Of a DNA stretch of 64,000 nt, positions 56,013 through 62,623 are shown one piece after another. Below the pieces are notes generated by a model. The model did no database searches, was not told the origin of the DNA, and was given only the letters and a program-made list of their open reading frames with translations. Both the position numbers and the translations under genes were made by a program. This DNA comes from Chryseobacterium sp. OSA05B. GTDB lineage: Bacteria > Bacteroidota > Bacteroidia > Flavobacteriales > Weeksellaceae. The stretch covers positions 310,001 through 374,000 of the forward strand of contig NZ_JAHXYH010000002.1 of the NCBI RefSeq assembly GCF_019970065.1, in the 5' to 3' direction. Every line of letters begins with the position of its first letter. The stretch's first letter is position 1.

Positions 56013-56076
56013 AGGACGGAGAAAATGAATGTTATTTTTAGTCATTAAAATTAGAGTTATTTTGTTTATTTATTTG

Positions 56077-56175
56077 AAAATCACTGATGTATATTACCGT
56101 ATTTTCACGTAACTGAAACACGTTACACAGAGAAAACGGTAAACAGTTACAACGGAAACGGTAATCAGTGATTTT
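56077..56175. promoter_or_regulatory. Long imperfect inverted repeat upstream of the curli-type operon
   Basis: Left arm 56077-56115 carries in order AAAATCACTGAT, ATTACCGT, GTAACTG; right arm 56144-56175 carries the complements CAGTTAC, ACGGTAAT, ATCAGTGATTTT. A smaller GTAAC...GTTAC dyad lies between. Located 45-140 bp upstream of the -7 box of the major curlin gene, it is placed to be a regulatory binding region. Confidence 0.6.
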
Positions 56176-56220
56176 TAAAATTTACACTTAAGCAGTGGTT
56201 TCTCGTTTGGGTTTAGCCTA

Positions 56221-56228
56221 TACCTTTG
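56221..56228 (+). promoter_or_regulatory. -7 box of the major curlin-like gene
   Basis: TACCTTTG matches TAnnTTTG, 31 bases before the ATG at 56260. No good TTTG is found 19 bases upstream, so activation by a regulator may be needed. Confidence 0.55.
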
Positions 56229-56259
56229 TCATACTATTAACCAATTAATTTTACCAAAA

Positions 56260-57078
56260 ATGAAAAACTTTATTACAGGTGTATTTACACTAATGGCCAT
56301 GAGTTTCAGCTTCGCACAATCAAACATTGATCTTACTGCCCAGATTGGAAACTTGAACGTTGCAACTGTTGACCAAACAGGGCTTTTAAACATCAACTCT
56401 TTAACACAGGATGGAAACCGAAATACGGCTGATATCGATCAGGTAGGTATTCTGAATATTAATACTGCTGAAAGTATTGGAAACAGAAACTCCATTGACG
56501 TAGACCAAGCTGGGATCGGTAACACCAATGATGTAAGCCAAACAGGAAACAGAAACTCCGCAACAACCTGGCAGTTGGGAGCATTAAACTCCACAGAACA
56601 GACTCAGATCGGAAGAAGAAATGAAACCTCTTCTTTACAGCTCGGAATAGGAAACGCAGTAGTACAATATCAGGATGGAAGAAGAAATGATGCTTCTGCT
56701 ATTCAGTTAGGTAACGGAAATGATGCTTATCAGATTCAGCTTGGAAGAAGAAATGATGCAAGCGGTCTTCAGGTAGGTAATGGTAACCTTTTAGTTCAAT
56801 ATCAGGATGGTGATGATAACAGTGCCACACATGATCAAGGAGGTAACAACAATATAGCTGCTTCAGTTCAGGTGGGTGATGACAACATGGCTATGGGGGT
56901 TCAGATTGGAAACAGTAACCAATTGTACCAACTTCAATTGGGAGATTCCAATACAGCGATTGATGTTCAGATGGGTAACAATAACTTTACCTGGGTAGCT
57001 CAAAGCGGAGATTCTCATATCCACGTAGGAACTCAGATCGGTAACGGAAACTCAATGATCGTTAACCAATCTAACTAA
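56260..57078 (+). CDS. csgA: Major curli-like amyloid subunit of 22 eleven-residue repeats
   Basis: 272 residues. Signal peptide (MKNFITGVFTLMAMSFSFAQ), a short linker, then residues 28-269 divide exactly into 22 consecutive units of 11 residues, each starting Q(V/L/I/T/D)Gxx(N), e.g. QIGNLNVATVD, QDGRRNDASAI, QMGNNNFTWVA; it ends QSN. Gln, Gly and Asn recur at positions 1, 3 and 6, the pattern of CsgA/CsgB curlin repeats (22 residues = two strands per turn), so 11 solenoid turns are expected against about five in E. coli CsgA. No insertions or deletions break the register. Secreted through CsgG to form surface amyloid in biofilm. Followed by a terminator before the next gene. Confidence 0.9.
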   Translation: MKNFITGVFTLMAMSFSFAQSNIDLTAQIGNLNVATVDQTGLLNINSLTQDGNRNTADIDQVGILNINTAESIGNRNSIDVDQAGIGNTNDVSQTGNRNSATTWQLGALNSTEQTQIGRRNETSSLQLGIGNAVVQYQDGRRNDASAIQLGNGNDAYQIQLGRRNDASGLQVGNGNLLVQYQDGDDNSATHDQGGNNNIAASVQVGDDNMAMGVQIGNSNQLYQLQLGDSNTAIDVQMGNNNFTWVAQSGDSHIHVGTQIGNGNSMIVNQSN

Positions 57079-57238: not shown

Positions 57239-57637
57239 ATGTTGAAACTCAGATGGGGTGCCTTTACACTTTTCGCAGGGCTGTGTGTGCAAGCGCAGCA
57301 GGTAGACTGGGATAAACTCAACAGCAGTACGGTTCTTGATCTTATGGCAAGACAGCAGACAGAGCAGGGACTTTATGGTTCCAGCATTATCCAGATAGGA
57401 GATGACAACCATGCGGAACTTTCTCTTAATGCTAAAACCATTATTGCCATTCAACAACTGGGAGACTTCAATACACTTTTTTTCATTAATTCATTTACAG
57501 ATCAAGCCACCAAAACTGCCGTTACCGCTCAGGGAAATAACAATATTATTGATATTACCGGAAGCAACAGTATTTCAGACGGCATGCAGATCAATGTAAA
57601 AGGTGACAACAAAACCATTTTCATGAGAAATTATTAA
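57239..57637 (+). CDS. csgB: CsgB-like curlin-repeat protein (putative nucleator)
   Basis: 132 residues from the ATG at 57239, whose product begins with signal peptide MLKLRWGAFTLFAGLCVQAQ; the longer frame to 57188 adds non-signal residues. The mature part has a few curlin-like units (IIQIGDDNHAELSL, IQQLGDFNTLFFIN, AVTAQGNNNIIDI, INVKGDNKTIFM) with looser spacing than the major subunit. Small size, few repeats and position before csgE/F/G suggest a nucleator or minor subunit. The 160-bp gap upstream holds the terminator and a weak TACCTTTA box. Confidence 0.8.
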   Translation: MLKLRWGAFTLFAGLCVQAQQVDWDKLNSSTVLDLMARQQTEQGLYGSSIIQIGDDNHAELSLNAKTIIAIQQLGDFNTLFFINSFTDQATKTAVTAQGNNNIIDITGSNSISDGMQINVKGDNKTIFMRNY

Positions 57638-57647
57638 AACACACGTG

Positions 57648-58379
57648 ATGAAATTTTTATATTCCTTAAATCTGTGCACTTTATTTATCTTCCTGTCTGC
57701 AACGGTTGATGGGCAGGAAGATAAAAAAGTGAACGCAAGGATTGAAAAAAGCATTCTCGAAAATCAGATTAATCTAAAAGCTGTTGTTACCAATAATACT
57801 GCCGTATACAAAGAGCTGAACTATCTTTTGATTTCCATTAAAAAAGGAAATGCCGGCAATCTTTCCAATAACCAGCAAAGCGGTAAGTTTTCCATCAATC
57901 CCAATGAAGTAAAGGTTTTATCTGAGATCAATGTGAATCTTGAACCGAAAGATGCTCTGAAAGCCTTCCTATACGTAAAAGATGAAGAAACCCAGAAAAT
58001 GATCGCCAAAGACAGTCTTGAAATCAATACCGATCTGTTCAAAAAGAAAACAGCCAAAGTAGAAGAAGATGCCGTCTTTGAACTGAAAGGGCTCACGATT
58101 GATGAAACCAAAACAAAGGTTGGGAAAGACTTTTATGATCTTTTTTACATCCAGTACAGTCAGATTCCTGATAAAAGCGGTGGCGCAGTTACCATTTCCG
58201 AACTTCCTCTCCGCGGGACGAGTGGCCAGATCAATATCCAGATCGATGACAAAGTGATTTACAGTTTTATGACCAATCCCAGCGAAGATTACCTGAAAGA
58301 ACAGCTGGCAGCCAGCTTAAAATATATCAAAGAATTTAATGCAAAGAAAAACCTCATTAAAAATGAATTTATCTACTAA
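57648..58379 (+). CDS. csgE: CsgE curli assembly protein with N-terminal CsgH/CsgC-like domain
   Basis: 243 residues from the ATG at 57648. Signal peptide to about residue 23 (TVDGQ). Residues about 25-120 (NARIEKSILENQINLKAVVT, YKELNYLLISIKKG, GKFSINPNEVKVLSEINVNL) form an immunoglobulin-like domain resembling CsgC/CsgH, inhibitors of premature curlin aggregation. Residues about 140-235 are CsgE: ELKGLTIDETKTKVGKDFYD, VTISELPLRGTSGQINIQID, DKVIYSFMTNPSEDYLKEQL. CsgE caps the periplasmic mouth of CsgG and guides curlin. The two-domain form would join chaperone and adaptor. Confidence 0.86.
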   Translation: MKFLYSLNLCTLFIFLSATVDGQEDKKVNARIEKSILENQINLKAVVTNNTAVYKELNYLLISIKKGNAGNLSNNQQSGKFSINPNEVKVLSEINVNLEPKDALKAFLYVKDEETQKMIAKDSLEINTDLFKKKTAKVEEDAVFELKGLTIDETKTKVGKDFYDLFYIQYSQIPDKSGGAVTISELPLRGTSGQINIQIDDKVIYSFMTNPSEDYLKEQLAASLKYIKEFNAKKNLIKNEFIY

Positions 58380-58390
58380 AAACGTCCGCC

Positions 58391-58801
58391 ATGAAAACTT
58401 TTATCATTATTTTGACCTTTATTGCGGGTATTTTCTCCGGAAAATCTCAGCAGCTCGTCTATAAGCCCATCAATCCGGCATTCGGAGGAGATACGTTTAA
58501 CTATCAGTGGCTTTTAAGTTCAGCAAATGCTCAAAATCAGTTTGACGAAAAAGATGATTACAGCAGTTTGCTCGATAATATCAATTCTTTAGACAGTTTC
58601 AGCCAGAGCCTCAACAGGCAGATCCTGAGTGAGCTGTCCAGGAAATTGTTTGAAGATCAGTTCGGGGAGGGCAGTCTGAAGCCCGGAAATTATCTTTTCG
58701 GTTCGCTTTATCTGCAGATTACCACTACAGCCCAGGGACTTTTGATCAATATTTTGGATACCAGTTCAGGCGATCAGTCCGAGATCGTAATTCCAAAATA
58801 A
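58391..58801 (+). CDS. csgF: CsgF curli assembly protein
   Basis: 136 residues. Signal peptide (MKTFIIILTFIAGIFSGKSQ), then QQLVYKPINPAFGGDTFNYQ, WLLSSANAQNQ, the signature of mature CsgF (NPxFGG and LLxSAxAQN), whose N-terminus inserts into the CsgG channel to link it to the nucleator. LDSFSQSLNRQILSELSRKL matches the central helix. Gap to csgE is 11 bp and to csgG 25 bp. Confidence 0.92.
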   Translation: MKTFIIILTFIAGIFSGKSQQLVYKPINPAFGGDTFNYQWLLSSANAQNQFDEKDDYSSLLDNINSLDSFSQSLNRQILSELSRKLFEDQFGEGSLKPGNYLFGSLYLQITTTAQGLLINILDTSSGDQSEIVIPK

Positions 58802-58826: not shown

Positions 58827-60191
58827 ATGAGAACTTACACTTACACCAGAATTTTTTTCTGTACGCTCCTTCTGTGCTTAATGCAGGCCTGCAGTTCGAT
58901 ACTGGGTCTTCCTTCCGATCCTGAAAGATCCACCATGGGAGAGCTTACTCCCTCTACTGCGGAATTGAAAAATCTTCCGCTTCCCAAAGAAAAAATCGTC
59001 ATTGGCGTTTACAAATTCAGAGACCAGACCGGCCAGTATAAACCGTCAGAAAACGGCAACAACTGGAGTACGGCTGTTCCACAGGGAACCACAACTATTC
59101 TGATCAAAGCATTGGAAGACAGCCGGTGGTTTATCCCGATTGAAAGAGAAAATATCGCCAATCTTTTAAACGAAAGACAGATTATCCGGTCCACCAGACA
59201 GGAATACAACAAGGACGCTGATAAAAACAGCCAATCTCTTCCCCCTCTTCTTTATGCAGGAATTCTTCTTGAAGGCGGCGTGATCTCTTACGACAGCAAT
59301 GTCATGACCGGAGGCCTCGGGGCCAGATATTTCGGAATAGGCGCTTCTACGCAGTACCGTCAGGATAGAATTACCATTTATCTGCGTGCTGTTTCCACAC
59401 TGAACGGTGAAATTCTTAAAACCGTTTATATTTCAAAAACCATTCTTTCCACCAGCGTCAACGGAAGTTTTTTCAGATATATCGATACCGAAAGACTTCT
59501 GGAAGCGGAAGTTGGACTTACTCAAAATGAACCGGTGCAGCTTGCTGTAACTGAAGCTATAGAGAAAGCGGTAAGATCCTTAATCGTTGAAGGGATCAGG
59601 GATAAGATCTGGGGCAAATCATCTGAGAATTTAACGGGTTACCAGGCTCTGATCAATGATTATAATAAAGAACAGGAAGATAATGTAGGAAGAACGGTAG
59701 GGAATAAGTTTCCGGAAAATTACAGACAGAAAATGTCCGTTTTTGCTAATGTGGAAGCTCAGAAAATTAAAGATGATTACGTAAATCCTAAAATGAATGT
59801 TGGCGGAAAACTGGGAATGAAATACTTTATAAGTCCCAATTTCAATATTGAAACCAGCGCCGGTTATTTCACTTTGGAAAATGAAACGATTATTAAAAGA
59901 AGCTATATAGTTCCCGAGCTTAATCTGGAGTTTCTTTTGTTCCCAAAATACAGATTCAGTCCGTACGTTTACGGTGGAGCGGGAGCTATGTTTTCAAAAT
60001 ACAAACCTCAGTACAAAGGCCAGGTCGGCGGTGGACTGGAATATATGATCGGGAATAATACCGCAATCCGGGTTTCGTCACAGTATGATATCGGTTTTAA
60101 AGATAACTGGGAAGGTTTGGTCAACGGAAAAAGAAAAGATCAGGCACTCCGTTTTGCACTTGGAATCAATTTTTACCTTGGAAACAAATAA
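58827..60191 (+). CDS. csgG: CsgG curli secretion channel with extra C-terminal barrel-like domain
   Basis: 454 residues against about 277 in E. coli. Lipoprotein signal with Cys22 (CLMQACSS). Residues about 40-275 are CsgG: KIVIGVYKFRDQTGQYKP, NNWSTAVPQGTTTILIKALE, SRWFIPIERENIANLLNERQ, GGLGARYFGIGASTQYR, FFRYIDTERLLEAEVGLTQN. The constriction loop keeps Asn79 but has Trp80 where E. coli has Phe56, and the Tyr51 position is lost with a one-residue insertion. Residues about 315-454 (NVGGKLGMKYFISPNFNIET, PYVYGGAGAMFSKY, ALGINFYLGNK) look like an eight-stranded outer-membrane barrel with a terminal aromatic pattern. Confidence 0.92.
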   Translation: MRTYTYTRIFFCTLLLCLMQACSSILGLPSDPERSTMGELTPSTAELKNLPLPKEKIVIGVYKFRDQTGQYKPSENGNNWSTAVPQGTTTILIKALEDSRWFIPIERENIANLLNERQIIRSTRQEYNKDADKNSQSLPPLLYAGILLEGGVISYDSNVMTGGLGARYFGIGASTQYRQDRITIYLRAVSTLNGEILKTVYISKTILSTSVNGSFFRYIDTERLLEAEVGLTQNEPVQLAVTEAIEKAVRSLIVEGIRDKIWGKSSENLTGYQALINDYNKEQEDNVGRTVGNKFPENYRQKMSVFANVEAQKIKDDYVNPKMNVGGKLGMKYFISPNFNIETSAGYFTLENETIIKRSYIVPELNLEFLLFPKYRFSPYVYGGAGAMFSKYKPQYKGQVGGGLEYMIGNNTAIRVSSQYDIGFKDNWEGLVNGKRKDQALRFALGINFYLGNK

Positions 60192-60202
60192 AAACATGAA
60201 CT

Positions 60203-61714
60203 ATGAAAACTTTAATCAAAATACTCAGCATATTCATCCTTATTTTTTGTCTGTTTTCATGCGGCGAAGACCTTGTGGAACAGGCTCAGACAGGAGCATT
60301 GAAAGGAAAAGTTGTAAAAAGAGGTACCAATGTACCTATTCCTAATGTGAAAATTTTTACAGCGCCCACTACACAGACGGTTTTCAGCGGGACAGACGGT
60401 ACATTCGAAATTGCTGCCATGCCGCTTGGAAATTATTCTGTGAAAGCAGAATTATCAGGCTATATCACCACTTTTCAGGGTGTTAATATACAAAACCAAA
60501 ACCAGGTAGTCACCGTGGTTTTTGAAATGGACGATGATGAATCACTTAATTCCCCTCCATCAGCACCGCAGCTGCTAAGTCCGGTAGACAATGCGGTAAA
60601 CCAGCCATTAAGCGTTGAACTGACGTGGACTGCTACAGATCCTGATACGGCTGATGTTTTAAAATATAGTTTAACAATTAAAAATAACCTTGATACTAGT
60701 GTGATTCAGGTTAATGATTTGGCGGCGAAACATTATTCGCTTTCCAATTTGAAGTTTGGTGTTAGTTACTTCTGGCAGGTGTCTGTTTCGGACGGCATTC
60801 ACCCGCCAGTTTTAAGTTCCATCAGTAAATTTACCACCAATACGGTTCCGGCCAACCGGTACCATTATGTGCAGAAACAGAACGGTAATTTCGTCATCAT
60901 GTCGACTGACGGACAAGGAAACAGTTTTCAGCTGACCAATTCGTCCTACAACAGCTGGAGACCACGGAAAAACAACAATGCAGGACTGATTGCATTTCTG
61001 CGGACCGAAGGTGGAAGTACCCATATTTATACGGTAAACCCTGACGGATCCAATCCTTTTAAAGTGACTACCGTACCAGCAGCCGGTTTTAATAATTATG
61101 AAATGGATTTTGCATGGAGTACCAACGGCCAGGAAATCCTCTATTCTAATTTCAATAAATTATACAGGATCAATAAAGACGGAAGTGGCCTGACTCAGGT
61201 GTACACAACCCCGGACGGAAGCATGATCTCCGAATGTGACTGGAGCTACGATGGTAGCAGAATCGCCGTAAAAACAAATGACTTCAACGGCTACAATACG
61301 AAAATCTACATTATTGATATGATGGGAAATGTTTTAAAAACTATTCTAACAGGATCAGCAGGAGCATCAGGTGGCCTTAACTTTTCTGTAGACGGACAAA
61401 TGCTCGTATACACAAGAGATATGTCAGGGTATCTGGATGGAAGCGGTAACTACCGTCAGCTCGACTCCCATATTTTCATCTATAATATAACTACTGACAC
61501 AATATATGATATTTCTGATGAAAGCGAAAAACCACTGGGAACCAACGATCTTGACCCAAGGTTTTCCCCCAATAATGCCCAGATTATCTACATGAATACT
61601 TCCAATGATAATATTTCTCAGAAAAATGTAATGGTTATTGATCTCAACAGCACCATGACTGATCTTTCGAGAGCATCTCTTTTCAGTAACGGGGAAATGC
61701 CGGATTATGAGTAA
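60203..61714 (+). CDS. Surface lipoprotein: carboxypeptidase-regulatory-like, Ig-like and PD40 propeller domains
   Basis: 503 residues, 12 bp after csgG and so in the curli operon. Lipobox LFSC (Cys near 20) followed by GEDLVEQ. Domains in order: carboxypeptidase-regulatory-like beta-sandwich (about 32-110: LKGKVVKRGTNVPIPNVKIF, TDGTFEIAAMPLGNYSVKAE), a fibronectin-III/Ig-like unit (about 120-215: PPSAPQLLSPVDNAVNQPLS, YFWQVSVSDG) and a TolB/PD40-like beta-propeller (about 220-500: DGSNPFKVTT, MDFAWSTNGQEILYSNFNKL, CDWSYDGSRIAVKT, LDPRFSPNNAQIIYMN). Not part of the E. coli curli set. It may anchor fibres or bind another surface ligand; role inferred from operon only. Confidence 0.8.
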   Translation: MKTLIKILSIFILIFCLFSCGEDLVEQAQTGALKGKVVKRGTNVPIPNVKIFTAPTTQTVFSGTDGTFEIAAMPLGNYSVKAELSGYITTFQGVNIQNQNQVVTVVFEMDDDESLNSPPSAPQLLSPVDNAVNQPLSVELTWTATDPDTADVLKYSLTIKNNLDTSVIQVNDLAAKHYSLSNLKFGVSYFWQVSVSDGIHPPVLSSISKFTTNTVPANRYHYVQKQNGNFVIMSTDGQGNSFQLTNSSYNSWRPRKNNNAGLIAFLRTEGGSTHIYTVNPDGSNPFKVTTVPAAGFNNYEMDFAWSTNGQEILYSNFNKLYRINKDGSGLTQVYTTPDGSMISECDWSYDGSRIAVKTNDFNGYNTKIYIIDMMGNVLKTILTGSAGASGGLNFSVDGQMLVYTRDMSGYLDGSGNYRQLDSHIFIYNITTDTIYDISDESEKPLGTNDLDPRFSPNNAQIIYMNTSNDNISQKNVMVIDLNSTMTDLSRASLFSNGEMPDYE

Positions 61715-61972: not shown

Positions 61973-62623
61973 TCAATCAATAATGTGGTTTTCTAAGGCA
62001 TATTTTACGATTCCTACGGAATTTTTTGCGTTTAATTTAAGGAGGATCCTTTTGCGGTGGGTTTCGACGGTATTGATACTTATAAAAAGTTTTTCAGAAA
62101 TATCTTTGCTGCTAAATCCGTCGCATATCAGTTTAAGGATCTCCATTTCTCTGCGCGTTAAAGGCTCTTTGATATGAGGATTTGGTTTTCCTTCCTCGCT
62201 GCTGATAAAGTTGATCATTCTTTCTTTGGCGTTGTCGCAGATGTAGATCTCATTTAAAAGCAGGGCATTTATGGATTTCAGGAATTCATCATATCTGCTG
62301 TTTTTGTCAAGATAGCTCTTTATACCTTTGTTAAAAAGCTTCCGGATGTCAATCATATCATAACTATTGCCTATGACAATAATCTTGATGTTTTTGTCTT
62401 TTGAGGTAATGTCTTCTACAAGTCTGAAAATATCTGTCAGCATCAGCATATTGGAGCTTATAACCAGAATTTCAGGGGGATCATCTTTTAATTGTTTAAA
62501 TAAGGGTTCATAAGAGTTACAAATGTCAATCGTGTTAAAAATTTTGCTCTGTGAGAGCAGTTTTGATAAACCTTCTGTATAGAGTAGTGGCTCATCAAAA
62601 ATGGTTAATCTCGGTTTCATCAT
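61973..62623 (-). CDS. LuxR/NarL-type regulator with atypical receiver domain (CsgD-like candidate)
   Basis: 216 residues. N-terminal receiver-like domain (about 5-125): LTIFDEPLLYTEGLSKLLSQ keeps the acidic pocket (Asp10, Glu11), but the phospho-acceptor position in PEILVISSNML is Ser56 rather than Asp; the distal Lys is kept in KGIKSYLDKNS. C-terminal LuxR HTH (about 149-212): LTRREMEILKLICDGFSSKD, ISEKLFISINTVETHRKRIL. No sensor kinase is nearby. Like E. coli CsgD, it is an orphan LuxR-type protein with a non-canonical receiver next to curli genes, so control of the operon is a reasonable inference. The 62624-62848 gap upstream is very AT-rich and shows no other feature. Confidence 0.88.
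   Translation of the reverse strand: MMKPRLTIFDEPLLYTEGLSKLLSQSKIFNTIDICNSYEPLFKQLKDDPPEILVISSNMLMLTDIFRLVEDITSKDKNIKIIVIGNSYDMIDIRKLFNKGIKSYLDKNSRYDEFLKSINALLLNEIYICDNAKERMINFISSEEGKPNPHIKEPLTRREMEILKLICDGFSSKDISEKLFISINTVETHRKRILLKLNAKNSVGIVKYALENHIID

Follow-up and report, generated by a model that had tools for sequence, protein, structure and literature searches.

RESULTS

A curli operon in Chryseobacterium

The window, a 64,000-nucleotide stretch of the genome of Chryseobacterium sp. OSA05B, carries an uninterrupted open reading frame of 272 residues at positions 56260 to 57078 (+ strand), followed by relatives of csgB, csgE, csgF and csgG. The encoded protein matched the Pfam profile PF07012 with 79 bits (cut-off, 20.7) over seven stretches; matches to the Escherichia coli-type NCBIfam models of CsgA and CsgB fell far under their cut-offs, and the RHIM amyloid motif PF12721 scored 17.7 bits, under its cut-off of 20. 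A preliminary description, made from the DNA letters, had called the product curlin-like, and this identity was borne out by the PF07012 score and by the csgA-B-E-F-G operon. Judged from sequence, the gene is csgA, encoding the major curli subunit of a Bacteroidota curli operon. A second curlin locus over the family cut-off was not found elsewhere in the host genome.

Two sets of relatives were compared. A scan with CsgF gave 80 named loci, all of which carried a curlin ORF (82 ORFs in total) as well as csgB, csgE, csgF and csgG. In a separate sample, CsgG was present in 75 of the 197 genomes of the host's family, the host genome included, and the 74 loci fetched from the CsgG-bearing genomes other than the host's all contained a curlin ORF except one (73 of 74); the csgA-B-E-F-G order was kept in this sample. 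The csgB-like gene (57239 to 57637, + strand; 132 residues from the ATG) encodes a minor subunit and likely nucleator with degenerate repeats, whose PF07012 match lies under the cut-off. A relative of it was found in every named locus. In the separate sample, 73 loci had one between csgA and csgE, and the 74th ends at a contig end.

The csgE gene (57645 to 58379, + strand; PF10627, 52 bits, over cut-off) encodes a protein that is 240 to 247 residues long in all 80 named loci and that begins with a putative CsgH/CsgC-like chaperone domain. This domain scored 36.6 with the NCBIfam CsgH model (cut-off, 35) and was modeled with seven strands, in a whole-protein model with a pTM of only 0.45; its two best PDB matches in Foldseek were CsgH (2n59, E = 8e-7) and CsgC (2xsk, E = 2e-6). 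According to passages of PMC3521004, csgC is missing from Bacteroidetes operons, and CsgH-like subfamilies have already been noted in Bacteroidetes in passages of PMC4838910. Since the CsgH/CsgC-like domain is fused to CsgE, the chaperone reported missing appears here as a fused domain. Judged by titles and the beginnings of abstracts, the open-licence PMC literature gave nothing on a CsgE/CsgC fusion in Bacteroidetes.

Downstream, csgF (58391 to 58801, + strand; PF10614, 132.6 bits, over cut-off) encodes a protein 99% identical to the CsgF proteins of named Chryseobacterium, and csgG (58827 to 60191, + strand; PF03783, 226 bits, over cut-off) encodes the secretion channel with a C-terminal extension, its total length being 452 to 466 residues in the 80 named loci. 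The extension, of about 190 residues, weakly matched an outer-membrane barrel family (PF13505, 19.9 bits, under the cut-off of 28.7). A sixth gene (60203 to 61714, + strand), which encodes a likely lipoprotein with a carboxypeptidase-regulatory-like domain and a TolB-like propeller, was conserved in 73 of the 74 loci of the separate sample and in 80 of 80 named loci, starting a median of 15 bases after csgG (range, 12 to 101). It is not known to belong to the csg set of E. coli. A LuxR-type response regulator (61973 to 62623, - strand) faces the operon in 76 of the 80 named loci, and it is a possible CsgD counterpart (NCBIfam CsgD, 49 bits, under cut-off). Its Ser56 lies where, judged by eye, the phospho-accepting Asp would be expected; this position was Ser in 63, Asn in 8, Gly in 5 and Cys in 1 of 77 regulators.

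Upstream of csgA, a block at 56073 to 56260 was conserved across 16 aligned genomes and contained TACCTTTG (56221 to 56228, + strand) plus a GTGATTTT motif; in the window, an inverted repeat (56073 to 56088 and 56164 to 56179) was also seen. TACCTTTG matches TAnnTTTG, the consensus of the -7 element of Bacteroidota promoters, and its TA and TTTG columns were invariant in the 16 aligned upstream regions. The block is likely a promoter with a regulator site.

CsgA has an unbroken register and an odd number of predicted strands

Residues 1 to 20 of CsgA (56260 to 56319, + strand) form a likely export signal, as suggested by the sequence and by a helix at residues 2 to 17 in the model described below. 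Residues 28 to 269 (56341 to 57066, + strand) had been described as 22 gap-free units of 11 residues, each with Gln-x-Gly-x-x-Asn, and our register count agreed with the number and the spacing. The word "each" was too strong: Gln at position 1 was present in 21 of 22 units, Gly at position 3 in 22 and Asn at position 6 in 21, giving 20 units with all three. Unit 5, with Ser72, and unit 21, with His253, deviated. When residues 21 to 272 were shuffled 20,000 times, no more than 3 full units fell into the best register, versus the 20 observed. The repetition of the Q/G/N core columns in 20 of 22 half-units is that by which Sleutel 2023 defines the centrosymmetric (CS) class. Self-identity was 0.47 at a lag of 22 residues versus 0.32 at a lag of 11, indicating that the half-repeats are paired and that the genuine repeat spans 22 residues, as in canonical CsgA. 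All 63 aligned csgA had Ser instead of the core Gln in unit 5 (Ser72; 56473 to 56475), a fixed irregularity.

An additional strand motif, N-x-x-x-x-x-Q, precedes unit 1 (N22 to Q28), and the last unit extends to Q270 (strand N264 to Q270). CsgA is therefore predicted to hold 23 strands, or 11.5 curlin repeats, rather than the exactly 11 turns of the preliminary description; its estimate that the protein is more than twice as long as E. coli CsgA, which has five repeats, stood. A single-chain AlphaFold2 model, built from an alignment of 40 sequences with identities of 53 to 97%, had a pLDDT of 79.8 and a pTM of 0.85. From residue 76 onward its strands followed the 11-residue register (starts at 76, 87, 98, 111, 120, 133 and 142, the series ending at 254), whereas DSSP fused neighboring strands before residue 76 (33 to 51 and 54 to 73) and assigned none to the last expected strand at 264 to 270. 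In the monomer prediction proposed earlier, most strands were thus in register. The subunits are predicted to form amyloid fibres of the biofilm by stacking. Foldseek found no PDB match to the model, and the one solved relative came from sequence comparison: 8c50, the sole PDB sequence relative at E ≤ 0.1 (phmmer E = 3e-16), which from its molecule name and PMC10192328 is taken to be R15.5 of Pontibacter korlensis (A0A0E3UX01).

Comparison of repeat number in related genomes, also proposed earlier, revealed 22 units in 62 of the 82 named curlin ORFs, but the number was not constant, as regular csgA ranged from 20 to 36 units. Lengths changed mostly in steps of 22 residues (250, 272, 294, 316, 338 and 382), by which the strand number stays odd. 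For the following counts we used a set of 73 regular csgA, comprising that of the window and 72 named ORFs with 20, 22, 24, 28 or 36 units; ten other named ORFs with broken registers were left out. All 73 had an odd strand number, the first strand opening with N and the last closing with Q (in L167, one leading strand match inside the signal peptide was removed from the count); from this, each subunit is predicted to add a half-turn to the fibre.

Two deviating types were seen. Irregular and much longer curlins (ORFs of 366 to 598 residues) occurred at the Chryseobacterium loci L151-L154, L157, L158, L159 and L169, two of which had two curlin copies, with the same csg genes alongside. A Kaistella subset (L170, L066, L067, L069-L072, L074 and L075) had a csgA with Lys-rich turns and a Cys-rich tail reaching about 29 residues past the last regular unit.

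An arginine ladder and an aspartate block lie on one edge of the predicted solenoid

The preliminary description had noted Arg-Arg and Asp-Asp pairs that could give charge-patterned faces. The pairs are present, with RR in units 9, 11 and 13 and DD in units 15 and 17; units 3, 5 and 7 have one R each. All of these residues are in G-x-x-N turns, and all of the units concerned are odd. Since the turns of odd units form one edge of a curlin solenoid and those of even units the other, the charges fall on one edge of the predicted solenoid and not on its faces. Read along the chain, the turns of this edge are NL NR NR NR RR RR RR DD DD DS DS, and those of the even edge are LL IL IG AL IG NG NG NN NS NN NG. 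By its sequence, the edge thus carries one Arg block, the ladder at positions 4 and 5 of units 3, 5, 7, 9, 11 and 13 (residues 53 to 164; 56416 to 56751, + strand), and then one Asp block in units 15, 17, 19 and 21 (residues 185 to 252; 56812 to 57015, + strand). The mature protein has no Lys, and all nine of its Arg residues are on the odd edge; for nine of nine to fall within those 22 of 252 sites, the chance is 5e-11.

In 62 of the 82 named ORFs, six odd turns in succession, beginning with the second, had Arg at position 5, and 49 of the 82 had the exact series NR NR NR RR RR RR. The 20 ORFs without the full six rungs comprised Kaistella-like types with Asn or Gly there, the long irregular curlins, two ORFs with four rungs, and one whose Arg run begins one rung later. 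Since the csg genes are nevertheless present in all 80 loci, curli as such do not depend on the ladder.

Substitutions were counted on a CsgG tree for the 63 csgA of 22 units (62 named and that of the window). At position 5, the Arg rungs had undergone a mean of 2.5 amino-acid changes per site, versus 14.3 in the matching turns across from them on the even edge; for position 4, the means were 3.5 and 17.0. Other outward positions ranged from 11.3 to 16.6, and the core Q/G/N columns from 0 to 0.2. Silent changes, taken as codon minus amino-acid changes, amounted to 5.2 per site at the Arg position-5 sites versus 9.0 at the matching turns. These data indicated that the DNA did drift at the Arg sites and, the silent changes being fewer there, that part of the low amino-acid change may not stem from protein-level selection.

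The Asp block was kept less strictly than the Arg block, with means of 7.25 (position 5) and 11.5 (position 4) amino-acid changes over its four rungs, although Asp at position 5 was found in 60 of 63 sequences for unit 15 and in 58 of 63 for unit 17. In ladder-bearing Kaistella, the block can be a single Asp. Its variability and this shortening speak against fibres being joined by a strict Arg-Asp zipper; a zipper with matching block lengths was marked down for the shortness of the block in Kaistella. The acidic turns of CsgB, considered as a mate for the ladder, varied with no clear relation to it (by eye, 16 sequences).

Beyond the family but within the same order, four Arg-bearing turns in a row on one edge were seen in 3 of 11 loci (L171-L173), in which the opposite edge was hydrophobic. 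None of 39 curlin ORFs from 18 loci elsewhere in the phylum had four successive Lys/Arg rungs (longest run, 3), a weak control, since only 3 of the 39 had an ungapped run of at least 8 units (the longest, of 18, once), in which four rungs could have appeared. What this comparison mainly shows is that the unbroken register is itself unusual in these 39 ORFs.

Asp24 and His255 are conserved at the two ends

In the published curlin model, the inward positions of a strand are N, Psi1, Psi2 and Q (PMC10192328, in passages). The first core strand of the window's CsgA is NIDLTAQ (residues 22 to 28; 56323 to 56343, + strand) and the penultimate one HIHVGTQ (residues 253 to 259; 57016 to 57036, + strand). 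Psi1 of the first strand was Asp, as in Asp24 (codon 56329-56331), in 73 of 73 regular csgA, and N and Q of this strand were likewise invariant; Psi1 of the penultimate strand was His, as in His255 (codon 57022-57024), in 72 of 73, and its Psi2 was Gly, as in Gly257 (codon 57028-57030), in 72 of 73. Asp24 and His255 held their places at the ends whatever the repeat number, from 20 to 36 units.

In a looser automatic count over distinct ORFs of the family, 68 of the 79 named members had the Asp-His pair and 8 had Asn-His; of the 70 members in the separate sample, 57 had Asp-His and 5 had Asn-His (one of these five, L076, ends at a contig end). L164 and L152 were scored otherwise by this count, yet have His in register. 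In the Kaistella subset with Cys-rich tails (5 of 70 separate-sample and 1 of 79 named distinct ORFs), Asp24 was kept and its partner was Ser or Thr. None of 13 curlins from the same order but outside the family had Asp-His, the commonest pair there being Ser-Ser (6). Nor did any of 38 curlins from the rest of the phylum, where Ala-Ala was the commonest (13), the repeats are irregular and the choice of strand is rough. Because the change from Ser-Ser to Asp-His divides two clades, it is to be counted as a single event, which is suggestive but does not amount to a covariation test.

The end positions may be read against published geometry. According to passages of PMC10192328, head-to-tail continuation of the solenoid requires a 180-degree turn where subunits end in a half-repeat; R15.5, with 31 strands, makes this turn and has a twofold screw by cross-linking and AF2. 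With an odd strand number, the same sheet overhangs at both ends and the next subunit has to rotate by 180 degrees; the incoming first strand would then lie atop the penultimate strand of the subunit before it. From this geometry together with the conservation, Asp24 is likely stacked on His255 at each subunit joint.

DISCUSSION

We consider it probable that this CsgA is a 23-strand solenoid that polymerizes head to tail by half-turns, with a buried Asp24-His255 joint and with an Arg ladder that serves in bundling. The subunit would be exported through CsgG with CsgE and CsgF, the CsgH-like domain on CsgE likely keeping it unfolded in the periplasm. CsgB would nucleate the fibre, onto which CsgA subunits would then stack, each rotated by 180 degrees relative to the last, as Sleutel et al. 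report for R15.5, and each laying its first strand on the penultimate strand of its predecessor, so that Asp24 would be placed on His255. The Arg ladder would present an electrostatic docking strip to acidic partners, which may be neighboring fibres or anionic matrix polymers. A bolder version, in which the buried Asp-His pair acts as a pH-sensitive click at every half-turn joint and the Arg ladders form a side-alternating spine that ties fibres to one another or to DNA and acidic polysaccharides, is put forward tentatively, and we would sooner expect it to fail than to hold.

The main rival to docking holds that the Arg ladder and the Asp block are gatekeepers, whose mutual attraction in the unfolded chain slows nucleation until export and which are idle in the fibre. 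Arg and Lys, together with Asp, temper nucleation in CsgA of Citrobacter youngae (PMC9900396, in passages), and here the conserved Asp columns of units 15 and 17 come directly after the Arg rungs, several of which also have conserved acids beside them. Gatekeeping, however, has no need of six consecutive turns on one edge with none opposite; scattered charges would do, yet the other edge varies freely. We regard it as unlikely and favor the docking strip, as far as may be inferred from these patterns.

Less likely still is that this is an ordinary curlin of the centrosymmetric class, with ladder and end residues simply inherited and without a special role. The class has already been described (PMC10192328, in passages), many of the aligned relatives are close, the Arg sites have fewer silent changes than the other edge, and the ladder was seen within one order only, in samples whose phylum control could hardly show one. 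Against this, the frequency of change at other outward sites on the same tree was about 4.5 to 7 times as high, the Arg codons did undergo silent changes, and Asp24 and His255 remain at the ends as the repeat number changes. That subunits stack by pure translation or head to head, with Asp and His in separate roles such as export or CsgB docking, is similarly improbable: some relatives do keep the His with Asn, and once with Ala, as the first-strand residue in the automatic count, but an odd strand number gives a mismatch under pure translation, which by the geometry would also stack Asp24 on a bulky Met, Leu or Ile at 266, and the twofold screw of the 31-strand R15.5 (PMC10192328) points the same way.

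Under the bolder version, the consequence would be an end-coded joint and an edge code kept by evolution while repeat number and faces drift. The curlin core is nearly the same everywhere, and the questions addressed here are how subunits recognize each other end to end and what role the variable outside plays; two features of low variation on a drifting background point to the joint (Asp24 and His255) and to one edge (the Arg ladder). Both would offer single-residue handles on assembly polarity, pH response and bundling, and for the design of curli materials.

Long regular curlins are already in print (Dueholm 2012; Sleutel 2023), and the length of this one is not new. As to its two conserved features, "arginine", "lysine" and "positively" do not occur in the main text of PMC10192328. 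In the open-licence PMC literature, no title or beginning of an abstract among the matches concerned curli of Chryseobacterium, no title among the matches listed concerned an arginine ladder in curlins, a search for curlin with screw and histidine gave no match, and none of the titles for Flavobacteri* with CsgG concerned the ladder or the end pair. The Arg ladder and the Asp-His end pair are thus new as far as this literature shows, and we do not claim that they are absent from print.

E. coli CsgA, which is exported by CsgG, CsgE and CsgF, shares the PF07012 repeat with the CsgA described here. It differs in having five full repeats, a non-centrosymmetric sequence and an even number of strands that stack by pure translation (PMC10192328, in passages), whereas the strand number of the window's CsgA is odd. 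Passages of the same paper describe curlins with repeat numbers from 4 to 62, as well as a centrosymmetric class whose half-repeats are nearly identical. Those of PMC3521004 (Dueholm 2012) describe curlins of up to 22 repeats, which are long like the present one, doubled minimal repeats in Halomonas, and Bacteroidetes operons without csgC and, Spirosoma excepted, without csgD; in the parts of that paper compared here, there is neither an Arg ladder nor the end pair. R15.5, the CsgA of P. korlensis, is like the window's CsgA in being centrosymmetric, in its near-identical half-repeats, in ending with a half-repeat and in its odd strand number, and differs in having 15.5 repeats rather than 11.5. 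In the stretches of 8c50 that were compared, there was no Arg or Lys, several acidic GEDN turns stood where the window's CsgA has Arg turns, and the last two strands in those stretches (NMSTVTQ and NISLVNQ) were without His, unlike those of the window's CsgA. Apart from the Arg ladder and the Asp-His pair, for which the roles given above are predicted, the protein is a real and ordinary member of the long centrosymmetric curlins.
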